This document shows, one piece after another, positions 3,868-38,730 of a stretch of DNA of 52,571 nucleotides (position 1 is the first letter of the stretch; each line of letters opens with the position of its first letter). Under the pieces are notes generated by a model. That model searched no databases and was not told the origin of the DNA. It saw only the letters and a list, made by a program, of their open reading frames with translations. This stretch comes from a virus, in IMG/VR virus record IMGVR_UViG_3300009514_000035, positions 1 to 52,571 of that record. One strand, 5' to 3'. The position numbers were made by a program, and so were the translations under genes.

Positions 3868-5139
3868 ATGACCTGGGGTACAGCAATATGGGGGACGGGC
3901 CTTTGGGGTGGCGCGCCGCTGGCCGCGTCGACCAACCTGTCGTTCGAAATTGCCGAGGCCACGGAGCAAGGTCAGGCTCACTCGTGGGATGTGCAATCCG
4001 ATACAGGCATCGTCGGTCGCGGCCTATTCGATGGCGATATTGGCCTGCACACGTGGCAATCAGCTGCCGACTTCGAGCAGTTGTGGCGTCTGCCTTATGT
4101 GGTGCACGAGACTCCAGACTTGGTCAACACTGCCAGCGTGATCAACGCCAGCGATTTGGCTAGTGCCATCTTGCTCGCGAACCATATCAAGTTGCAGTAC
4201 AACAAGCATCGAGGTCTCGGTGGACCGATCCACTTGGTGCCGGACATCACCAACCTCGTTACGACCGAAGATGCGTCTGATTCTGCGACGACCATTGCGC
4301 TGGTTAATGCCATTAGGATTGCGCTCAACGCGCACGTGGCCGAGTGGACGACAATTCACCGCAGGGAAGACGTGTTGGCTGAAGTCACCACAGATCCGGC
4401 ATCAGACACGGCGACAGCAATCACTCTCATCAACGCGATAAAGTACGCCTACAATGGCCATCTGCTTCGTCAGGGCTTCGGCACCACGAACAGTGACGCC
4501 AAGTTTGAGTACGCGTCTGCAGACCTCGACGCGGCGATTTTCTCGTTCGGCGGTCTAGCTGTAGAAAATTTCGAGGCGCATTGGTCCATACCCGACATGT
4601 TCCCGGTGTCCGACGATCAATCCGTCATGGTCTCCACCGACGCTGAGCCATCTTTCGCCCCCTCGCACGTCATTGACGTCTTTCTTGGCTCTGCGAGCGG
4701 CGTGCAGCCAGTCTCGGTGCGCTCTGGCTTCAATGTCTCCTGGCCCGACGGTCACGTGCAGTTTCTAAACGACTTCAACATGGTCGATAGTCAACCTGCA
4801 TTTCCGCCGGAAGGCGAGACGTTTGACGCGGACTGGTTCCTTCCCGGCTCTGTAGGTACATACCCGAACGATACTTTCCTGTTCAACTACTACGATGCCG
4901 TCACAGACACTTGGGGCTTCGGTGTCGCCGATCTGGTGACGGGCTTCTTCGCCTCAGGGGAGTCCACCGAGGACTTCGAAGACAGTTGGACAGGTCAGAC
5001 CTACTCCGCAAAATTCTGGTCCGGAACAGAATGGAGATTTCTGCCCGGAGAAGGGGTGCATTTGGAGTATGGATACATGGACTCCGGTTACACCTACGAT
5101 TCATTTGACCCGTCCGATTGGACGCTGACACTAACGTAA
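3868..5139 (+). CDS. Tail/baseplate-associated protein with three helical repeats and W-rich beta repeats
   Basis: 423 residues, unrecognised as a whole. The N-terminus is Gly/Trp-rich (TWGTAIWGTGLWGG). Residues about 92-205 hold three imperfect repeats: NASDLASAILLANHIKLQYNKH, then DASDSATTIALVNAIRIALNAH, then ASDTATAITLINAIKYAYNGH, each a 'D..(T/S)A...L.N.IK...N.H' helix. This type of helix repeat is seen in fibre and baseplate proteins of large phages. The C-terminal half has recurring 'F(E/D)xxW' strands (FEAHWSIPDM, FDADWFLPG, FEDSWTG), suggesting a repeated beta domain. Strongly supported as a tail structural gene by context; exact function unknown. Confidence 0.8.
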   Translation: MTWGTAIWGTGLWGGAPLAASTNLSFEIAEATEQGQAHSWDVQSDTGIVGRGLFDGDIGLHTWQSAADFEQLWRLPYVVHETPDLVNTASVINASDLASAILLANHIKLQYNKHRGLGGPIHLVPDITNLVTTEDASDSATTIALVNAIRIALNAHVAEWTTIHRREDVLAEVTTDPASDTATAITLINAIKYAYNGHLLRQGFGTTNSDAKFEYASADLDAAIFSFGGLAVENFEAHWSIPDMFPVSDDQSVMVSTDAEPSFAPSHVIDVFLGSASGVQPVSVRSGFNVSWPDGHVQFLNDFNMVDSQPAFPPEGETFDADWFLPGSVGTYPNDTFLFNYYDAVTDTWGFGVADLVTGFFASGESTEDFEDSWTGQTYSAKFWSGTEWRFLPGEGVHLEYGYMDSGYTYDSFDPSDWTLTLT

Positions 5140-5149
5140 GAGAGACATC

Positions 5150-5854
5150 ATGGCAGAAACTGATTTTGGGTTATTTGGCGCACAAGCAGGCAGCATTAAG
5201 CGCGGCGTCACTGCGGGATTCGACGCACCTAACGGTGGCGGGAACTACGTGGTCGGCTTCCACTCGGCAGTCACGACAGCAGAGGCCATGGGCTTTTACT
5301 ATAGTGGCACCAACTTCTCCCCACTGCGAGATGACGCCAACAATGCCACTGGTTGTTCGATTCGTGCGGCAATGAAGCGCGGCCCTGCATCGAACCCTCT
5401 CGGGTTCTCTGTGGCGTTATTCGCTTGCCTGCAGGCCGCGTCGGAGACGGCGTACGGTTACTTGCTGGGGTTGTCCAACAATGACCCTCATCGCATCTTG
5501 CTCGCCAAGACGACGCCTGCCGCAGGCTTGGACCCGAATGCGTCGGCAACAATTCTTGCGACGTCGTCGGCGACATTCCTTATCGACACGTGGCATCACT
5601 TGAAACTGGACGTTATCGTGAACCCCAACGGCGACACGGTGCTGAAGTGCTTCTCCAACGACCTCGGCACCAACCCGGTCAACGGCCCGGTTTGGGTTCA
5701 GGTGGCAGGCATGAACGACGTGATCGACGACGCCCTCGGCATCACATCGTCAAGTAATCCACTGGCCGGCGGCTACGCTGGCTTCTGTTTTGAATCATCT
5801 GAATCCGGCGCATACGCGTTTGTGGACCACTTCGAGATCGATCGCCAGAAGTAG
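5150..5854 (+). CDS. Lectin-like (concanavalin-type beta-sandwich) tail decoration protein
   Basis: 234 residues with no clear family name. The pattern of the last 90 residues, DTWHHLKLDVIVNPNGDTVLKC-type strands (key residues W-H-x-L-x-L-x-V at about 145-152), then AGYAGFCFESSESGAYAFVD and FEIDRQ at the end, is typical of jelly-roll carbohydrate-binding modules ('WH.v.l.v...g......y......G..Gf......'). It probably sits on the baseplate and may touch host surface sugars. SD-like purines precede the ATG and the TAG stop is 9 bases before the next gene. Fold inference is by eye. Confidence 0.7.
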   Translation: MAETDFGLFGAQAGSIKRGVTAGFDAPNGGGNYVVGFHSAVTTAEAMGFYYSGTNFSPLRDDANNATGCSIRAAMKRGPASNPLGFSVALFACLQAASETAYGYLLGLSNNDPHRILLAKTTPAAGLDPNASATILATSSATFLIDTWHHLKLDVIVNPNGDTVLKCFSNDLGTNPVNGPVWVQVAGMNDVIDDALGITSSSNPLAGGYAGFCFESSESGAYAFVDHFEIDRQK

Positions 5855-5863
5855 AGTACGACG

Positions 5864-7738
5864 ATGCCAAACCCAAAATGGAGTGACAGTACAACCGACG
5901 CCGACGGTAATGTGCACCTGGGCAGTCTGCTGGTGTCAGACGTCAGCGTCATCGCGTCCGCCGTAGGCAGCTTCGGTGACCCCGTGCCTAATGGCCATTG
6001 GGGTGCAGCTGCAGATGGCATCTTCTACGCGGATGGCATTGCATGCGGGCCTGGCACATTCGATGAGGGAGTCGCCCTCAACACCAAAGCGTACCGCTTC
6101 CACAACCTCGATCCGATGGCACTCGGCTCGTCAGGGCATTCGATCACCCGACAGTCTGCCGACACCCTGCGTCTTGCAAGCTCAGGCGGTCTCACCGGTG
6201 AGCTCGTCAACATGCAATCGCGCCACAAGTGGTACCTACAGGGTGACTTCGATGTCTCCGTTGACTTCGCTCTGTGGGCGTACACGCCAGGAGGTGGCGG
6301 AACGCTGGCCGACTTCGTGCTGGAAGCACGCTCTACGACAAACCCCGTCAATTCTACGGCTGTCGCGCGCCGTGAACGCGCAGGCATAGACGGCTTCATC
6401 CGCTGGTCCTTTGACGCCGGCTCGCCACAAAACAGCTTAGAGCAGTTCCCAGCGTCCGCTGCGTCCGGTTCGCTGCGCATCGCTCGAGTCGGCACAACGC
6501 TGTTCCACTACTATGACATCGGTGGTGGATGGGTTGCCGTCGGCACGCCATTCAGCTCTGCAGCGAATATCGTCGACAATGACTGCTACATCTCGATGTA
6601 CATCACAGGGCTGGCCGGTGCCGATGTGACAGTCGACATCAGCAACTTCACCATTCTGTCCGGGTCAACAACCAACACGGCAGGCTGGTCACGTGAAACG
6701 TTCCATGCCCATCGCGGCAACGCAGGTGCCATGCCCGCAGAGTTGGCTGTAGCGTGCACGTTGGACTCTGTCGACATGATCGACACAGACACCGAACTCC
6801 TCTGGCAGCGATTTGTTACCGGCGCAGATACGGCCCTAGACACTGGAGACGAAAGAGCGATACGGACGGCGTGGAACAACGGACGAATGTTGATAGCTAA
6901 TGGCACATCCCCGCCCGACGCAGACGCCTTTGGAGGCGTCCTCGTTGATTACGTGCTTGATGACATTCTCCTACATGAGTCTGGAGGAGGCAAGGACTTT
7001 GTTGCAGCCCGCATCGAGGCCTTTGGGGCCATTGCGTACAGAAATGCCGGCACTATCGCCGGGGCGTACACCTCGGGGCCCACATCCAGGTCGATTCCGG
7101 ACAACAGAGTGCGCGATGTTGCCTTTTACCAAGACGGCACTATGGAGTATCGAGCGTTTGCGACAAGCAGCGGTATCGGCGTCTATGAGGAAAAACGCTT
7201 GTACGAGCTTGTCACGCGAGACTCAGGCTCGAGTACGGCATCGACGGTGATGCAGTACTGCTGGTTCGACCCGGCAGACGGCACACTGTACTTCATGGAC
7301 GACTCGACAATCTACTCGGCAGACGCAGCGACATGGCAAGCCTCCATTGGTGGTTCCAGCTTTGGCGCAGATGACAGTGAAGCGCTACCAGGCACCATGA
7401 ATGCGCCAGGCTTTTCGCAGTTTCGGCCTGTGATTCGATCTGGTGTCGTCTACGTTCCCACCAATGAGGGCATCTACAGCATGGCGTGGCCTGCCGGCTC
7501 GTTTTCCTTGCTCTACGGTGACAGCGCTTCTACGGCGGCCTACAAGGTCTTGCCGGACAACGACCGTGTGACTGCACTGGCACTGGGTTTTAGGGACTTG
7601 ATTCCTCATCTAGTGTGTGTCGTGAAATCGGGTTCGACATTTTCTGCTCTCGCCGTTAACTTGAACGACAACACGGCAACAAACGTGGAAGATGTCACGA
7701 CAAGCACCGTGACTGAGCCTGTGACTGTGAGCGACTAA
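5864..7738 (+). CDS. Large tail protein with lectin-like N-terminal part and propeller-like C-terminal part
   Basis: 624 residues. Residues about 85-270 carry a second lectin/jelly-roll pattern (WYLQGDFDVSVDFALW ... IARVGTTLFHYYDIGGGWVAVG ... CYISMYITG), as expected for a concanavalin-type domain that binds sugars. From about residue 330 on there are repeated short strands ending in 'Y-x-x-D/A' with aromatic residues (VMQYCWFDPADGTLYFMDD, VVYVPTNEGIYSMAWP), resembling propeller blades. It sits in the baseplate operon and overlaps the next gene as TAATG. The family is not recognised; a host-contact or fibre-attachment role is inferred. Confidence 0.75.
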   Translation: MPNPKWSDSTTDADGNVHLGSLLVSDVSVIASAVGSFGDPVPNGHWGAAADGIFYADGIACGPGTFDEGVALNTKAYRFHNLDPMALGSSGHSITRQSADTLRLASSGGLTGELVNMQSRHKWYLQGDFDVSVDFALWAYTPGGGGTLADFVLEARSTTNPVNSTAVARRERAGIDGFIRWSFDAGSPQNSLEQFPASAASGSLRIARVGTTLFHYYDIGGGWVAVGTPFSSAANIVDNDCYISMYITGLAGADVTVDISNFTILSGSTTNTAGWSRETFHAHRGNAGAMPAELAVACTLDSVDMIDTDTELLWQRFVTGADTALDTGDERAIRTAWNNGRMLIANGTSPPDADAFGGVLVDYVLDDILLHESGGGKDFVAARIEAFGAIAYRNAGTIAGAYTSGPTSRSIPDNRVRDVAFYQDGTMEYRAFATSSGIGVYEEKRLYELVTRDSGSSTASTVMQYCWFDPADGTLYFMDDSTIYSADAATWQASIGGSSFGADDSEALPGTMNAPGFSQFRPVIRSGVVYVPTNEGIYSMAWPAGSFSLLYGDSASTAAYKVLPDNDRVTALALGFRDLIPHLVCVVKSGSTFSALAVNLNDNTATNVEDVTTSTVTEPVTVSD

Positions 7739-33732: not shown

Positions 33733-34452
33733 CTATGCAGCGAGTCGCTTGTACTCTTCTTCGACAATCTTTACGATGGCCAAATCTTTTACAGGCGAGT
33801 CACCGGATTTGATTCGTTCAGTGATCTGTTCCAGCTCGGCGCAGATCTTCTTTTTGTTTGGCTCCATGATGAAGTAGGCCATGGAGTGGAAGTTTTCGGC
33901 TCGATCTTCAATGTACTCTTTTTTGATGTGGCCGTGCACCAAAAAATGAATGTGCATCGAGACAGTGTAGGCTTGCAGCTCCCATCGCTTGCGCCATGGA
34001 TCGGGCCACTGCGGAATGAAGTGGACGCCGGTTGCGACCAGCCATGCTCCGAGGTAGACCAGCTTCCACCAGCCTGGCACCCAGAACACACCGACCCACC
34101 CACCAAGCAGCAGGGCGATTCCCTGGCTGATAGGCCAAAGGTAGAGATAAAAGAACAACGGGCGAGTCCACTTCATGGCCTGCACTACGTGGTAGATTTC
34201 GTGGGCGAGGACATCCCAACAAGTAAACTTCCCGTCGGCGGTCTCCGCGCCAGCACGGATGGCTATGGAGTAGCCAATTGTCGTCGTGAAGCTCTTGTAG
34301 TAGGAGTCCTGCTTCTCCTTGGAGTAGACGAGGTTCAATATCCAGTTGATCAGGGTGTGCAGCGCAAATGCTTTCTTTGGGCCGACGGTAATCTTCGGGC
34401 TGATTTCTTTCCTGGCCCGCGCCAGCACGGCGTCAAAAATCTTTTCATGCAT
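33733..34452 (-). CDS. Membrane-associated HExxH (gluzincin-like) metalloprotease-like protein
   Basis: 239 residues. DVLAHEIYHVVQ contains HExxH at residues 84-88, and a downstream Glu in WELQAY (residue 158) could be the third zinc ligand, as in gluzincins. Two hydrophobic segments lie between these (about 98-123, LYLWPISQGIALLLGGW; and 130-148, LVYLGAWLVATGVHFI), so the active site would sit at a membrane face. The C-terminal 60 residues are charged helices. I find no signal peptide. It overlaps the upstream gene by 8 bases. Some phages carry HExxH proteins, but a membrane form in a replication operon is unusual. Activity is inferred. Confidence 0.75.
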   Translation of the reverse strand: MHEKIFDAVLARARKEISPKITVGPKKAFALHTLINWILNLVYSKEKQDSYYKSFTTTIGYSIAIRAGAETADGKFTCWDVLAHEIYHVVQAMKWTRPLFFYLYLWPISQGIALLLGGWVGVFWVPGWWKLVYLGAWLVATGVHFIPQWPDPWRKRWELQAYTVSMHIHFLVHGHIKKEYIEDRAENFHSMAYFIMEPNKKKICAELEQITERIKSGDSPVKDLAIVKIVEEEYKRLAA

Positions 34453-34795: not shown

Positions 34796-35000
34796 TGGAC
34801 TCTCGCGTTTCTGTCTCGACTTCCTCTGGTGGGTACGAGAATCTCACGTTCATAAATCGCTGATGCCGGTCAAGCCATTTCCGCCACGCAGGGAACGCCG
34901 GATGGCCACCAGCGGAAAAGTTCAAATGCTTACCGTCAAGGGTGATGCAATCGATTGTTACTTCAGCGTCCGCGACGCTGCTCTGCTGCTTTGTAGGCAC
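34782..35000 (-). CDS. Small hypothetical protein (72 residues)
   Basis: A GTG at 35000 is proposed as start because AGGAG lies 7 bases before it; this makes it overlap the HNH gene by 38 bases. A longer start at 35051 has no ribosome-binding site. The protein has a beta hairpin (AEVTIDCITLDGKHLNFSA) and a basic aromatic helix (FPAWRKWLDRHQRFM). No family recognised. The start choice is uncertain but the downstream half, free of overlap, appears genuinely coding. Confidence 0.55.
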   Translation of the reverse strand: MPTKQQSSVADAEVTIDCITLDGKHLNFSAGGHPAFPAWRKWLDRHQRFMNVRFSYPPEEVETETRESNGLC

Positions 35001-35559
35001 GGAGCCACTCCTCGTATGTAGCGTACTTGGGCGGGTACTGCTTGGTGCCAATCACCAGTCGCCATGCGCCCCATGGTGCAGAATGCTCGAGTGGGGCAGG
35101 GATGAAAGTAGGGTCTAATATCTGCCGAGTGGCGTCAAGAGGACGCAATCCGGCATTGCGCAGGATCATGATACCGTGTTCGGTGCGCATGGCAAATTCG
35201 AGCTGAGACATCTCACCGGCGGCAACCATGGCGTCCATGCGTCCGATATGAATGAAGCTGTGGCAGTAGTTGCACAGTGCAACTATCTCGTCGAGACGAG
35301 CTCTGCCTTTCTGCTGATCTATGGTGTACGCCTCATGCGCCTCCAACCACGTTCCGCCTTTAGCGTGGGCACGACTATCTCCGCAGGCCCAGCAACATTG
35401 GTTGTTGCCGGCATAGGCAATCTCTCGTTGCTGGTTCCACCAGTCTTCACCGAGAATGTTTCGGGGGTTGACTTCGTGCAACGGCTTGGGAATCTGGGGG
35501 TGTCGTAGCAGCTCAGGGCGCTTGAACCTTGGCATGGTCCCAGACAGATCGATGGTCAT
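34963..35559 (-). CDS. HNH-endonuclease-like protein
   Basis: 198 residues from an ATG inside the TGATG overlap with the polymerase stop. A zinc-type HNH core is visible: CCWACGDSRA (C-x2-C), WLEAHEAYTID (the His-Glu part), then VALCNYCHSFIHIGRM (C-x2-C-H and the final His). About 90 residues either side are unrecognised; the C-terminus is basic. Such proteins cut or nick DNA, and HNH genes next to phage polymerase genes are often homing endonucleases. Here the gene is fully coupled to the polymerase gene, so it could equally be a resident recombination nuclease. Confidence 0.78.
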   Translation of the reverse strand: MTIDLSGTMPRFKRPELLRHPQIPKPLHEVNPRNILGEDWWNQQREIAYAGNNQCCWACGDSRAHAKGGTWLEAHEAYTIDQQKGRARLDEIVALCNYCHSFIHIGRMDAMVAAGEMSQLEFAMRTEHGIMILRNAGLRPLDATRQILDPTFIPAPLEHSAPWGAWRLVIGTKQYPPKYATYEEWLRAYKAAEQRRGR

Positions 35560-37565
35560 CACTTCACCGCTTTTAGCGTCTTGCCGATAGACGCGCCAGC
35601 TGTCAGGTCGACAGAGCCGGCCGGGCCTTCGATGACGTGATGGCCGAACATCTGGTTGACCAGGTCTTTGATTTCTTCTGCGTGGCGTTCGTAGCACTCG
35701 ATGTATAGAGCGTCATGACCGTGCAAGATGATATGCGCGTCAGCCCAACGACGACTCAGCTCGTCTTGAATCTCCACCATGGATTTGCCGACCACGTCGG
35801 AGCCGCATGTCTGGATGCCCCAGTTGGCGACTTCCGTGAACGGAGGCGGCTGTACTGGGAAGTAACGCCGTCGACCGAATGGCGGAGTCTCGAGCCAGCC
35901 CTGCGTCTCTGCGAGGTGGAAGTTCTGGTCATGCCATAAAGGAATTTCGACGTACTTGCCGAAGTACGAATGGTAGATGTGAGCGACCGCTTCGACAGTC
36001 AACGAAGCTCGCAGTGCGGGATCTAAGAACTTCTTCTTGCGAATCGATTTATGGACGGTCTTAACACCGGCTCGATACAGCGAAGCGTACACAGTGGTTT
36101 TAACTGCGTCCCTCAGGCGCTTTCTCACCGCCTTTTCTTTTTTCAGAAAGTCGTCGCCGTAGATGTTGATGGCCGCAAGAGTGTGTGGATCTCCATCCTC
36201 TTTTGCCATCTCCACGAGGAGCTCTCGCACTCCAGCAAATACAGCAGCCAGGCGTAGCTCAAGTTGATCCTTATCGGCGCCGATGAACACGCGACCCTCT
36301 GGTGCTTCGAAGAACTCTCGATCGCCTACGCGTTGGTTCTGCACGTTGGGTTGCGAGGTGAACCTGGAGCCCTTCTGTCCGGTTGGGTTCCACTTTACAT
36401 GGATGCGTCCGTCGGCTTGTTTTGCTCGCCAGTACGCGCCGCCCTTTGGGCCTTTCTTTCCGTGTGGAGGTGGATCGCGATACTGCGTTGCGAACACATG
36501 GTGCCCCTCGACATAGGCAATGAAGTCCTTGACGAACGGGTGCTCCATATGATCGATGATGTCTTCGTACCGAGTCGATGGCTGTTTAGTCTTTTCGGTC
36601 CACGACGTCGGCAGCAGTCCGACATATTTCTTGTCGTACAGGGCGCGCACTGCGTGATTCTTGTTCATGGGATTGAAGTCTTCCCAGTTCAACCACTGTC
36701 GCATACGATGCTTCAGCTCCTCGTTTCTGTTGAGGAGCTTCTCGCCCATCATGCGGCGTTTGTCCCAATTTACGGGGAGACCGACGAGCTCCATGTTGGC
36801 TGCAAGTCGGGCGAAGGCCATCTGGTACGACATCAATTCGTGCGACATGCCACGAGTGAGGATGTCTTCGATCAACAAACGCCTCAACTTGCAAGTGTTC
36901 AAAGCATCCTTGGCGTTGTACACCAGCAGTTCAATCACATCAGAAGTGAAGGCTTGCTTCTCTCCAAGGTGATTCAACTTCCAGGGTTCAACATCCAAAT
37001 ACGTGTGGCCAATCCAGCCGAGGTCATGCGGAATATCAGGTTGCACTAAATGATGGTAGCCTTGCGTGTCCTCGATAGGCCCGTCGATGGTGTAGCCTTT
37101 ATGTGTCAACACAGCGTAGTCGAACGGCGCGTTGTGGTAGACCGTCGACACGCGCTTGCTGATCAGAATCTCTCGCATCTTCTGCGTCAGTGCGAGCTCA
37201 GCGTCCCAAGGCAAGGATTTATGGTTTGCGAGGGTGAATGTGACTGCGGCGTTGTAGCCGTCGTCGCCGGCAAGCGCGATGGAGTACAGCTTGCAGGACA
37301 GGAAGTTGATGCTGGAAGTTTCGATGTCGACTGCAACCGGACAGCCCAAGTTCAGCCAACGGTCCATCCACGCAATGCCTTGCTTGACGGACTCATAAGT
37401 GCCAACAGGATTGGCAGGATGACAGACAATGAGTTTCTCTTCTTGGTTGGGTCCGTCCCATGAGACACGCTTGACTTTGGCGAGATCCATTCGAATGACA
37501 TCGGATATTGGCTTGCCGCCGCGAAGTAGGGCAGCAGGATGCACGCATGGAATTACGTGTGGCAT
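35559..37565 (-). CDS. polA: Family A DNA polymerase with 3'-5' exonuclease and a UDG-derived N-terminal tail
   Basis: 668 residues. The exonuclease domain shows VAVDIETSS (ExoI, residues 78-85) and VYHNAPFDYAVL (ExoII, near 160). Polymerase motif A is GADKDQLELR (near 430), motif B RDAVKTTVYASLYRAG (near 490), motif C HGHDALYIEC (near 616). Motif C reads HDA where most relatives have HDE; the metal-binding Asp is kept. There is no 5' nuclease domain. The first 35 residues, MPHVIPCVHPAALLRGGKP then RMDLAKVKRV, are not polymerase-like but match the C-terminal end of family-4 uracil-DNA glycosylases. In SPO1-type polymerases a whole UDG-like domain precedes the exonuclease; here only its end is attached. 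Confidence 0.93.
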   Translation of the reverse strand: MPHVIPCVHPAALLRGGKPISDVIRMDLAKVKRVSWDGPNQEEKLIVCHPANPVGTYESVKQGIAWMDRWLNLGCPVAVDIETSSINFLSCKLYSIALAGDDGYNAAVTFTLANHKSLPWDAELALTQKMREILISKRVSTVYHNAPFDYAVLTHKGYTIDGPIEDTQGYHHLVQPDIPHDLGWIGHTYLDVEPWKLNHLGEKQAFTSDVIELLVYNAKDALNTCKLRRLLIEDILTRGMSHELMSYQMAFARLAANMELVGLPVNWDKRRMMGEKLLNRNEELKHRMRQWLNWEDFNPMNKNHAVRALYDKKYVGLLPTSWTEKTKQPSTRYEDIIDHMEHPFVKDFIAYVEGHHVFATQYRDPPPHGKKGPKGGAYWRAKQADGRIHVKWNPTGQKGSRFTSQPNVQNQRVGDREFFEAPEGRVFIGADKDQLELRLAAVFAGVRELLVEMAKEDGDPHTLAAINIYGDDFLKKEKAVRKRLRDAVKTTVYASLYRAGVKTVHKSIRKKKFLDPALRASLTVEAVAHIYHSYFGKYVEIPLWHDQNFHLAETQGWLETPPFGRRRYFPVQPPPFTEVANWGIQTCGSDVVGKSMVEIQDELSRRWADAHIILHGHDALYIECYERHAEEIKDLVNQMFGHHVIEGPAGSVDLTAGASIGKTLKAVK

Positions 37566-37816
37566 TTTGGCTCCGCACGGTCCTGCACGTCACTTTTGCG
37601 GCGCGACAGCAACCAGTCGTGGTAGATTCCCCCGACTGTTTCGATGTAATCGATCGCGTCCATGCATTGCGTGTAGCTATGAAACCTGGCATTGGCCCAA
37701 CCAGCAACGTAGCCAATTGTGCCTGACGAATCTGCAGCGGCAATGCGCCACAAGACTTTCGGCTTGCCGCGAGCATCCTCCCCTTTGGTTTGCACACCGA
37801 CCAGTCTTCGTTCCAT
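37553..37816 (-). CDS. 87-residue hypothetical protein inserted between UDG and polymerase
   Basis: Starts in a TAATG overlap with the UDG stop and ends 13 bases inside the polymerase start, so it is coupled on both sides. The sequence has strands and a helix (KPKVLWRIAAADSSGTIGYV, CMDAIDYIETVGGIYHDWLL) and a basic end (SRRKSDVQDRAEPK). It matches neither UDG nor polymerase and has no HNH, GIY-YIG or LAGLIDADG motif. It lies exactly where a UDG-polymerase fusion seems to have been interrupted. Confidence 0.75.
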   Translation of the reverse strand: MERRLVGVQTKGEDARGKPKVLWRIAAADSSGTIGYVAGWANARFHSYTQCMDAIDYIETVGGIYHDWLLSRRKSDVQDRAEPKCHT

Positions 37817-38385
37817 TAGACGCCTTTGACCTGCCGCATAGGTGACGACATGGTTCCGTCGATAAGTTTTTTTGCCAACACGCGTAGATCTACGTCAGAG
37901 ATGGAGCCACGGTAGGAGTAAATTTTGGCTTTGGCGATGTCCAATACGCTCCACAAGGCCCAATTACCGAGAGGCACAATGACTACTGGATCGACGGTGA
38001 TGAGCTCGTTGATCAAGCGCCTGCGACATGCCATGGTGGCTGCCGCTTTCACTTGCAACTTGGGGATTATTGCGCCGTTGGCTAGCTTGATCTTTCGTGC
38101 TTTGCACATGGACGCATTGCTCACCCATACATCCTCACGCTTCAGACCGGCATCGGCGCACAACATCCACAGGAGCTGCCCTGATGGCCCAACGAACCCT
38201 CGACCTTCTGCGAGTTCTGTGTCACCAGGCTCTTCGCCGACAAAGGCGACACGAGCCGGCACTGGGCCATCAGGGTAAACTTTAGTGTCGTAGCGCAGAG
38301 GGCAGTTCACGCAGTCAGGATTGGCTAGCAAGCCATGATAGTAATTTCCTGACGGCCTGCCATAGCTAGCGTCTGGGAGCCGCAT
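37816..38385 (-). CDS. Family-4-type uracil-DNA glycosylase, C-terminal motif missing
   Basis: 189 residues. The Fe-S Cys pair is DCVNCPL (C25, C28), with C94 (NASMC) and C120 (ATMAC) as the other probable ligands. Motif 1 is AFVGEEPGDTE (47-57), then GRGFVGPSGQLL (61-72), VWVSNASMCK, and LITVDPVVIVPLGNWAL. These follow family-4 UDG order exactly. The usual final motif 'xxHPaxxlR' that positions uracil is absent; the chain ends RGSISDVDLRVLAKKLIDG and MRQVKGV. A matching VHPAALLR stretch begins the DNA polymerase encoded just downstream. The protein could be inactive alone or complemented in trans. Confidence 0.88.
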   Translation of the reverse strand: MRLPDASYGRPSGNYYHGLLANPDCVNCPLRYDTKVYPDGPVPARVAFVGEEPGDTELAEGRGFVGPSGQLLWMLCADAGLKREDVWVSNASMCKARKIKLANGAIIPKLQVKAAATMACRRRLINELITVDPVVIVPLGNWALWSVLDIAKAKIYSYRGSISDVDLRVLAKKLIDGTMSSPMRQVKGV

Positions 38386-38388
38386 CGA

Positions 38389-38730
38389 TCAGCTCCTCTT
38401 CCGCGAGTTTGGTCGGCGACACTGGAGGCAGCGCTTAGGTACGATAAGCCCGGCGCCAAACTTTTTTACCAGATTGGCGCGATCTTCATCGGTGAAGACC
38501 CACGGTTTTTTGCAGGCGACGCACGTCCAAGATCGGCTGCGCCGTCTCTTTGGTGGGGAGTGTGCGTTCTTTACGAGTGAAGTGGAGCCGTCGCCTGCTA
38601 CCAGCAATACCACGTCGGCTTCGCTGGCCAAATCCCGTACATCAGGTTTCAATGTGTCGAGACTTTGCACGTCGGCTCCTGGTTCAAAGTCGATGCCCTC
38701 GAAGACCCACAGTGCGGTTCCTCTGTGCAT
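38389..38730 (-). CDS. Small protein with C-terminal zinc ribbon
   Basis: 113 residues, AAGGGAG 7 bases before the ATG, stop 3 bases before the UDG ATG. The N-terminal half alternates strands and helices (ALWVFEGIDFEPG, EADVVLLVAGDGSTS) and recalls a small NTP-binding-like fold without a P-loop. A basic linker (PPKRRRSRSW) leads to a C-x2-C pair (TCVACKK) and a second pair (RCLQCRR). First gene of the leftward UDG-polymerase-HNH group, just after a strong terminator. Function unknown. Confidence 0.72.
   Translation of the reverse strand: MHRGTALWVFEGIDFEPGADVQSLDTLKPDVRDLASEADVVLLVAGDGSTSLVKNAHSPPKRRRSRSWTCVACKKPWVFTDEDRANLVKKFGAGLIVPKRCLQCRRPNSRKRS

Follow-up and report, generated by a model that had tools for sequence, protein, structure and literature searches.

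A phage uracil-DNA glycosylase domain apparently divided between a small protein and the N-terminus of a family-A DNA polymerase

Fused, split and stand-alone relatives

Fused uracil-DNA glycosylase (UDG)-polymerases have been described in phage PaBG and its relatives (PMC7412058). These fused UDG-family-A polymerases (phrog_17; among them the SPO1 relatives LysYB1 of Lysinibacillus, PaBG of Pseudomonas and phiLo of Thermus, the phiLo polymerase with a structure in the PDB, 9qhs) have the order UDG, exonuclease, polymerase, and their HPA block lies directly before the exonuclease domain. We find the same order and the same placement in an uncultured virus contig, IMG/VR record IMGVR_UViG_3300009514_000035, analysed over its whole stretch of 52,571 nucleotides (the window). 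Whereas each fused protein is a continuous chain, the one found here is interrupted ahead of the final UDG strand, with other genes lying in the cut. The explanation that we consider clearly the most probable is an old gene fission that produced a two-chain glycosylase, its second part being the N-terminus of the polymerase, and a domain that forms only on the polymerase.

The family-4 UDGs (Thermus UDGa, 1ui0; Thermotoga UDG, 1vk2) and UdgX (6ajo) have the same fold (Z 20-21 for a linked model of the two pieces), pocket residues and four cysteines. In contrast to these enzymes, here the catalytic histidine is on another protein, a glutamate stands at the position of Gly42, and the domain is complete only as two chains. 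Split phage enzymes with working pieces are known, as in Aeh1 NrdA and gene 43 of phage 25 (PMC2988022), and the genes-in-pieces enzymes (Aeh1 NrdA, the T4-related gene 43 polymerase, T4 gene 60 topoisomerase; PMC2988022) likewise represent a broken phage gene; the likeness extends to an HNH endonuclease in the break of one relative of our locus, L069. Unlike in those enzymes, here the cut falls within one small domain, and the active site would be shared by a repair enzyme and a replicative polymerase. Members of the same fused family in MW202554 (L045 1727-4364), L084, L086, L092 and L093 are also encoded by two genes, but are cut between the exonuclease and polymerase domains, leaving UDG and exonuclease in one open reading frame (ORF) and the UDG domain intact. 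A glycosylase split as in the window was not found in open-access full texts, subscription literature being mostly outside that search.

The two halves and their locus

In the 189-amino-acid protein the Pfam UDG match covers only profile positions 3-101 of 141 (E-value 7.9e-16); the last strand, the HPA motif and the final helix of UDG are absent. Judged by its sequence, this protein is a family-4-like UDG truncated before the last strand and the HPA motif. The uracil pocket of Thermus UDGa consists of E41, G42, E47, F54, N80 and H155 (PMC5387724). By alignment, E51, E57, F64 and N90 of the small protein equal Thermus E41, E47, F54 and N80, F64 and N90 being invariant within the split clade, and C25, C28, C94 and C120, also invariant, stand at the sequence positions of a predicted iron-sulphur cluster. 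Glu52 replaces Gly42 of the Thermus thermophilus enzyme, with E51 and E57 of motif 1 kept. A sequence-only reading of this DNA had credited the protein with all family-4 motifs except the last; the missing HPA motif is borne out, the Gly42 equivalent is not. The alignment thus places the first five pocket positions on the small protein (G42 as Glu) and the histidine on the polymerase, where the HPx motif absent from the 189-residue chain is found. Given that replacement of His155 by Ser lowers k2 more than a thousandfold in Thermus UDGa (PMC5387724), the 189-residue protein alone should be nearly inactive.

The N-terminus of the polymerase is MPHVIPCVHPAALLRGGKPISDVIRMDLAKV. The absent end of the UDG (VIPCVHPAALLRGG...DLAKV) corresponds to polymerase residues 4-34; in an alignment that includes about 20 naturally fused UDG-polymerases of IMG/VR and GenBank phages, it falls in the HPA-motif column of the UDG and leads directly into the exonuclease domain. 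This HPA block contains the last UDG strand, the motif with the catalytic histidine (H9, equal to Thermus H155) and the C-terminal helix. We find that the halves are co-linear on the phrog_17 profile, whose members include fused UDG-exonuclease-polymerases: the small protein matches positions 480-596, and the polymerase, from residue 4, matches 607-1228 (E-value 4.3e-74). By this sequence match, the polymerase part shares descent with the fused phage UDG-PolA proteins. The window encodes no single-chain UDG-exonuclease-polymerase; there are two chains, with only the last ~35 UDG residues on the polymerase. The sequence-only reading had located a split UDG in these genes and its missing ending at the start of the polymerase two genes downstream, and our alignments agree. 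Alignments looking for the opposite, a small glycosylase complete in itself or a polymerase N-terminus of another family, returned an incomplete protein (Pfam match ending at 101 of 141) and an N-terminus that aligns to UDG.

The features, in window coordinates, are:

40651-39647, minus strand: Sak4-like ATPase, start of the minus-strand gene order
37816..38385, minus strand: UDG half, 189 amino acids, family-4-like uracil-DNA glycosylase by Pfam UDG and alignments
37553..37816, minus strand: 87-amino-acid ORF in the break, from sequence, with no assigned family
35559..37565, minus strand: family-A DNA polymerase, 668 amino acids, opening with the HPA block (Pfam DNA_pol_A 4.7e-34, DNA_pol_A_exo1 5.4e-9)
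37464..37556, minus strand: HPA block, polymerase residues 4-34 (VIPCVHPAALLRGGKPISDVIRMDLAKV...), by phrog_17 match and alignment to fused UDG-polymerases
36876..37355, minus strand: 3'-5' exonuclease domain, polymerase residues 71-230 (Pfam PF01612)
35577..36749, minus strand: polymerase domain, residues 273-663 (Pfam PF00476)

The minus-strand order is Sak4-like ATPase, a 261-amino-acid protein, a 113-amino-acid cysteine-rich protein, the UDG half, the 87-amino-acid ORF, the polymerase and an HNH endonuclease. The UDG stop and the start of the 87-amino-acid ORF overlap as TAATG, and the end of this ORF shares 13 nucleotides with the beginning of the polymerase gene; these overlaps make translational coupling of the three genes plausible. 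The HNH endonuclease gene (phrog_5200) occupies 34963-35697, directly downstream of the polymerase. Further along, 33733-34452 encodes a 239-amino-acid protein with a sub-threshold match to an extracellular contractile injection system (eCIS) core domain (Pfam PF13699, 20.3 bits against a cut-off of 22).

The same break in other phages

The break is common to 12 phage records belonging to two deep lineages: the window, L002-L006, L024, MW202637 (identical in MW202789), MW202477, L068, L069 and L070. L024 contributes the UDG half only, followed by a phosphoesterase gene, an ORF of the 87-amino-acid type and the contig end. In all of the 11 records with both genes the polymerase opens with the HP block, and therefore this placement is not due to chance. 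In the split relatives tested, Pfam UDG matches stop at 96-101 of 141; the HP motif lies only 6 to about 10 residues after the polymerase start, and HP is invariant in both lineages despite polymerase identity of ~24%. The UDG half as query in IMG/VR yielded five relatives, all with a polymerase opening on the HPA block; the polymerase as IMG/VR query gave no confirmed match, the relatives coming from the UDG query and alignments. A search of genome contigs showed no cellular or prophage copy. L003 shares 63% identity with the window in each half, and within the window clade the equivalents of E41, E47, F54, N80 and H155, together with the four cysteines, are invariant among aligned members. 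In the other records, L068-L070 retain motif 1 (GEGPG or GESPG), the phenylalanine and the asparagine; L068, with a classical GEGPGHEE...F...N and HP on the polymerase, keeps the pocket fully by sequence. The gene of MW202637, the phage that matched best, was considered as a degenerate stand-alone UDG; this was rejected, its polymerase also opening with the HP block.

What lies in the break varies. An ORF of the 87-amino-acid type is present in the window, L002 and, weakly, L006, and an unrelated 86-amino-acid ORF in L003; in L004 the break is about 0.8 kb with small ORFs, and in L005 it is a bare one-nucleotide stop/start overlap, TAGTG. The halves of L002 are about 3.5 kb apart, with a 905-amino-acid ORF and others between. 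This ORF (L002 5648-8365) has no PHROGs match. The MW202637 break holds an RNA ligase and that of MW202477 a 94-amino-acid ORF, and both polymerases have a GTG start (PKIEALHPGTAFF and FVVPVEHPKNSWF, respectively). In L069 an HNH endonuclease lies exactly within the break (Pfam HNH_5, 2.7e-8). The 87-amino-acid ORF itself carries the motif GW..RF.SY..C..AI and has no match in Pfam, PHROGs or phages; its relatives, in L002, L024 and weakly L006, lie near the UDG half. None was found in L003, L004, L005 or the remaining split phages, and second-lineage breaks hold other genes, so that we reject it as an essential third subunit in general, though it may have a local role. As a separate observation, the polymerase domains of L005 (5534-8545) and L006 (5779-10101) carry in-frame insertions resembling inteins, one in L005 and two in L006.

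In a tree of the UDG N-terminal part, the split UDGs form one clade (100/100) grouped with the fused UDG domains (92/85). All split polymerases likewise form one clade (98/97) in a 21-row polymerase tree. With more rows a single fused polymerase, L067, joins the split clade (96/94) as the sister of MW202477, which implies either a single fission and a re-fusion or at least two fissions. This L067 protein (4482-7145), an 888-amino-acid fused UDG-polymerase whose UDG motif 1 is degenerate, lies among split polymerases in the tree and may be a re-fusion. The trees are midpoint-rooted, and we take the fused state to be older because fused forms are widespread to either side of the split polymerases; this supports, from sequence, split polymerases nested in a radiation of fused ones and a fused ancestor. 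Together with a split conserved over large distances, it agrees with the earlier proposal of a UDG-polymerase fusion broken before the HPA motif.

Conservation of the second half points the same way. Among six split polymerases, 14 of 31 residues of the HPA block are invariant; the linker after it has 10 of 36, and the two exonuclease segments have 21 of 80 and 37 of 100. Within the block the ratio of non-synonymous to synonymous changes per site (pN/pS) lies at 0.19-0.54, most synonymous sites being close to saturation, and purifying selection on the block holds also where the halves are 3.5 kb apart. Given this conservation and low pN/pS, the block is unlike a useless remnant.

Assembly, activity and competing explanations

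Reading L003 through its two TGA codons joins the UDG half, the spacer and the start of the polymerase in one chain of 354 residues. When the alignment includes fused relatives, AlphaFold2 predicts this chain with a local confidence score (pLDDT) of ~97 in the UDG half and 88-94 in the HPA block, falling below 40 in the middle of the spacer. The linked model superposes on Thermotoga UDG 1vk2 over 175 of 190 residues (2.1 Å, Z 21.4, model span 15-310) and on Thermus UDG 1ui1 with Z 20.5; in this prediction both pieces together close a complete UDG fold. Several results weigh against a two-chain enzyme of this kind. The model is a single linked chain dependent on fused homologues, and a control with split rows only gave no confident structure anywhere (mean pLDDT 54.6), so that placement of the HPA block rests on homology to the fused proteins, with no independent signal. 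The prediction thus supports docking only with fused homologues in the alignment, and the control is neutral. Of the seven window-clade members, six have Glu at position 42 and one, L024, has Gly; in the Thermus enzyme G42D drops k2/Km about 100-fold (PMC5387724). Motif 1 is lost in the split MW202637 (GGGPTRDD) and MW202477 (ITDQPTQQDE), indicating that activity is not what keeps the split arrangement everywhere.

A question arises, is the assembled domain still an enzyme? The main rival holds that the pieces assemble but that the domain has become a structural or a uracil- or DNA-binding part of the polymerase, a reading to which we give a substantial, though minority, share of our confidence. 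It draws on the degenerate motif 1 of the two split phages just named and of the fused Serbin, Almagne and LysYB1, on the Glu at position 42 throughout most of the window clade, and on a fold that persists where catalytic residues do not. Set against it are the invariant pocket equivalents and cysteines of the window clade and the classical motif of L068 with HP on its polymerase, conservation that is hard to explain there without catalysis. That the small UDG works, or is dying, alone and that the HPA block is a functionless fossil of the fused ancestor seems improbable: remnants of this sort are left by fission of fused genes, but few parts of the polymerase are as well conserved as this one, which is retained in two lineages and eleven records and faces a small protein without the strand and catalytic histidine.

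Still less credible is a rejoining of the halves before folding, by intron, intein, programmed frameshift or translational bypass, to give one chain. The apparent inteins of the L005 and L006 polymerases lend it some colour. At the break, however, there is no Rfam match (37000-38500), and inspection of both edges by eye, without an intein profile, showed nothing intein-like; moreover the break is filled by differing genes (RNA ligase, HNH endonuclease, phosphoesterase, small ORFs), shrinks to TAGTG in L005 and extends to 3.5 kb in L002. We therefore rejected an intron, and likewise an intein or trans-splicing, at this site. In an uncultured virus contig one might suspect a fused gene broken by faulty assembly or sequencing, but independent records from many samples have the same break, real inserted genes and clean start codons, and we regard such an error as next to impossible.

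We therefore favour gene fission followed by assembly in trans. An ancestral fused UDG-exonuclease-polymerase gene would have been cut in the loop before the last UDG strand. Its upstream part would now encode a shortened glycosylase that retains the iron-sulphur cysteines and most of the uracil pocket; its downstream part would encode a polymerase that begins, over ~35 residues, with the remainder of the glycosylase, catalytic histidine included. The chains likely assemble: they would meet after translation, the polymerase N-terminus supplying the edge strand and HPA loop, and the UDG domain would form only on the polymerase, at its position in the fused relatives. There it may scan template or nascent DNA for uracil, leading to excision, or, where motif 1 has decayed, to no more than binding and pausing. 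Judged from its residues, the assembly has about an even chance of glycosylase activity, and we infer its coupling to replication. The repair enzyme is probably completed only by docking onto the polymerase. The fullest version, an active site divided between a free protein and a replicative polymerase, excision switched on only on the replisome, and this state kept in two deep phage lineages, we hold more tentatively, at slightly under even. As to the origin of the break, the HNH gene in the L069 break and the phage precedents (Aeh1 nrdA, T4-related gene 43; PMC2988022) suggest insertion of a homing endonuclease, though the HNH gene could also have come later.

If true, the locus would encode a naturally split enzyme whose repair activity depends on the polymerase, and it would offer a direct test of glycosylase-replication coupling in phages. 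It would also mark a site at which a family-4 UDG is cut in nature, of use in a split reporter or a polymerase-gated glycosylase, and a case of one small domain long shared by two genes, with other genes inserted between them.
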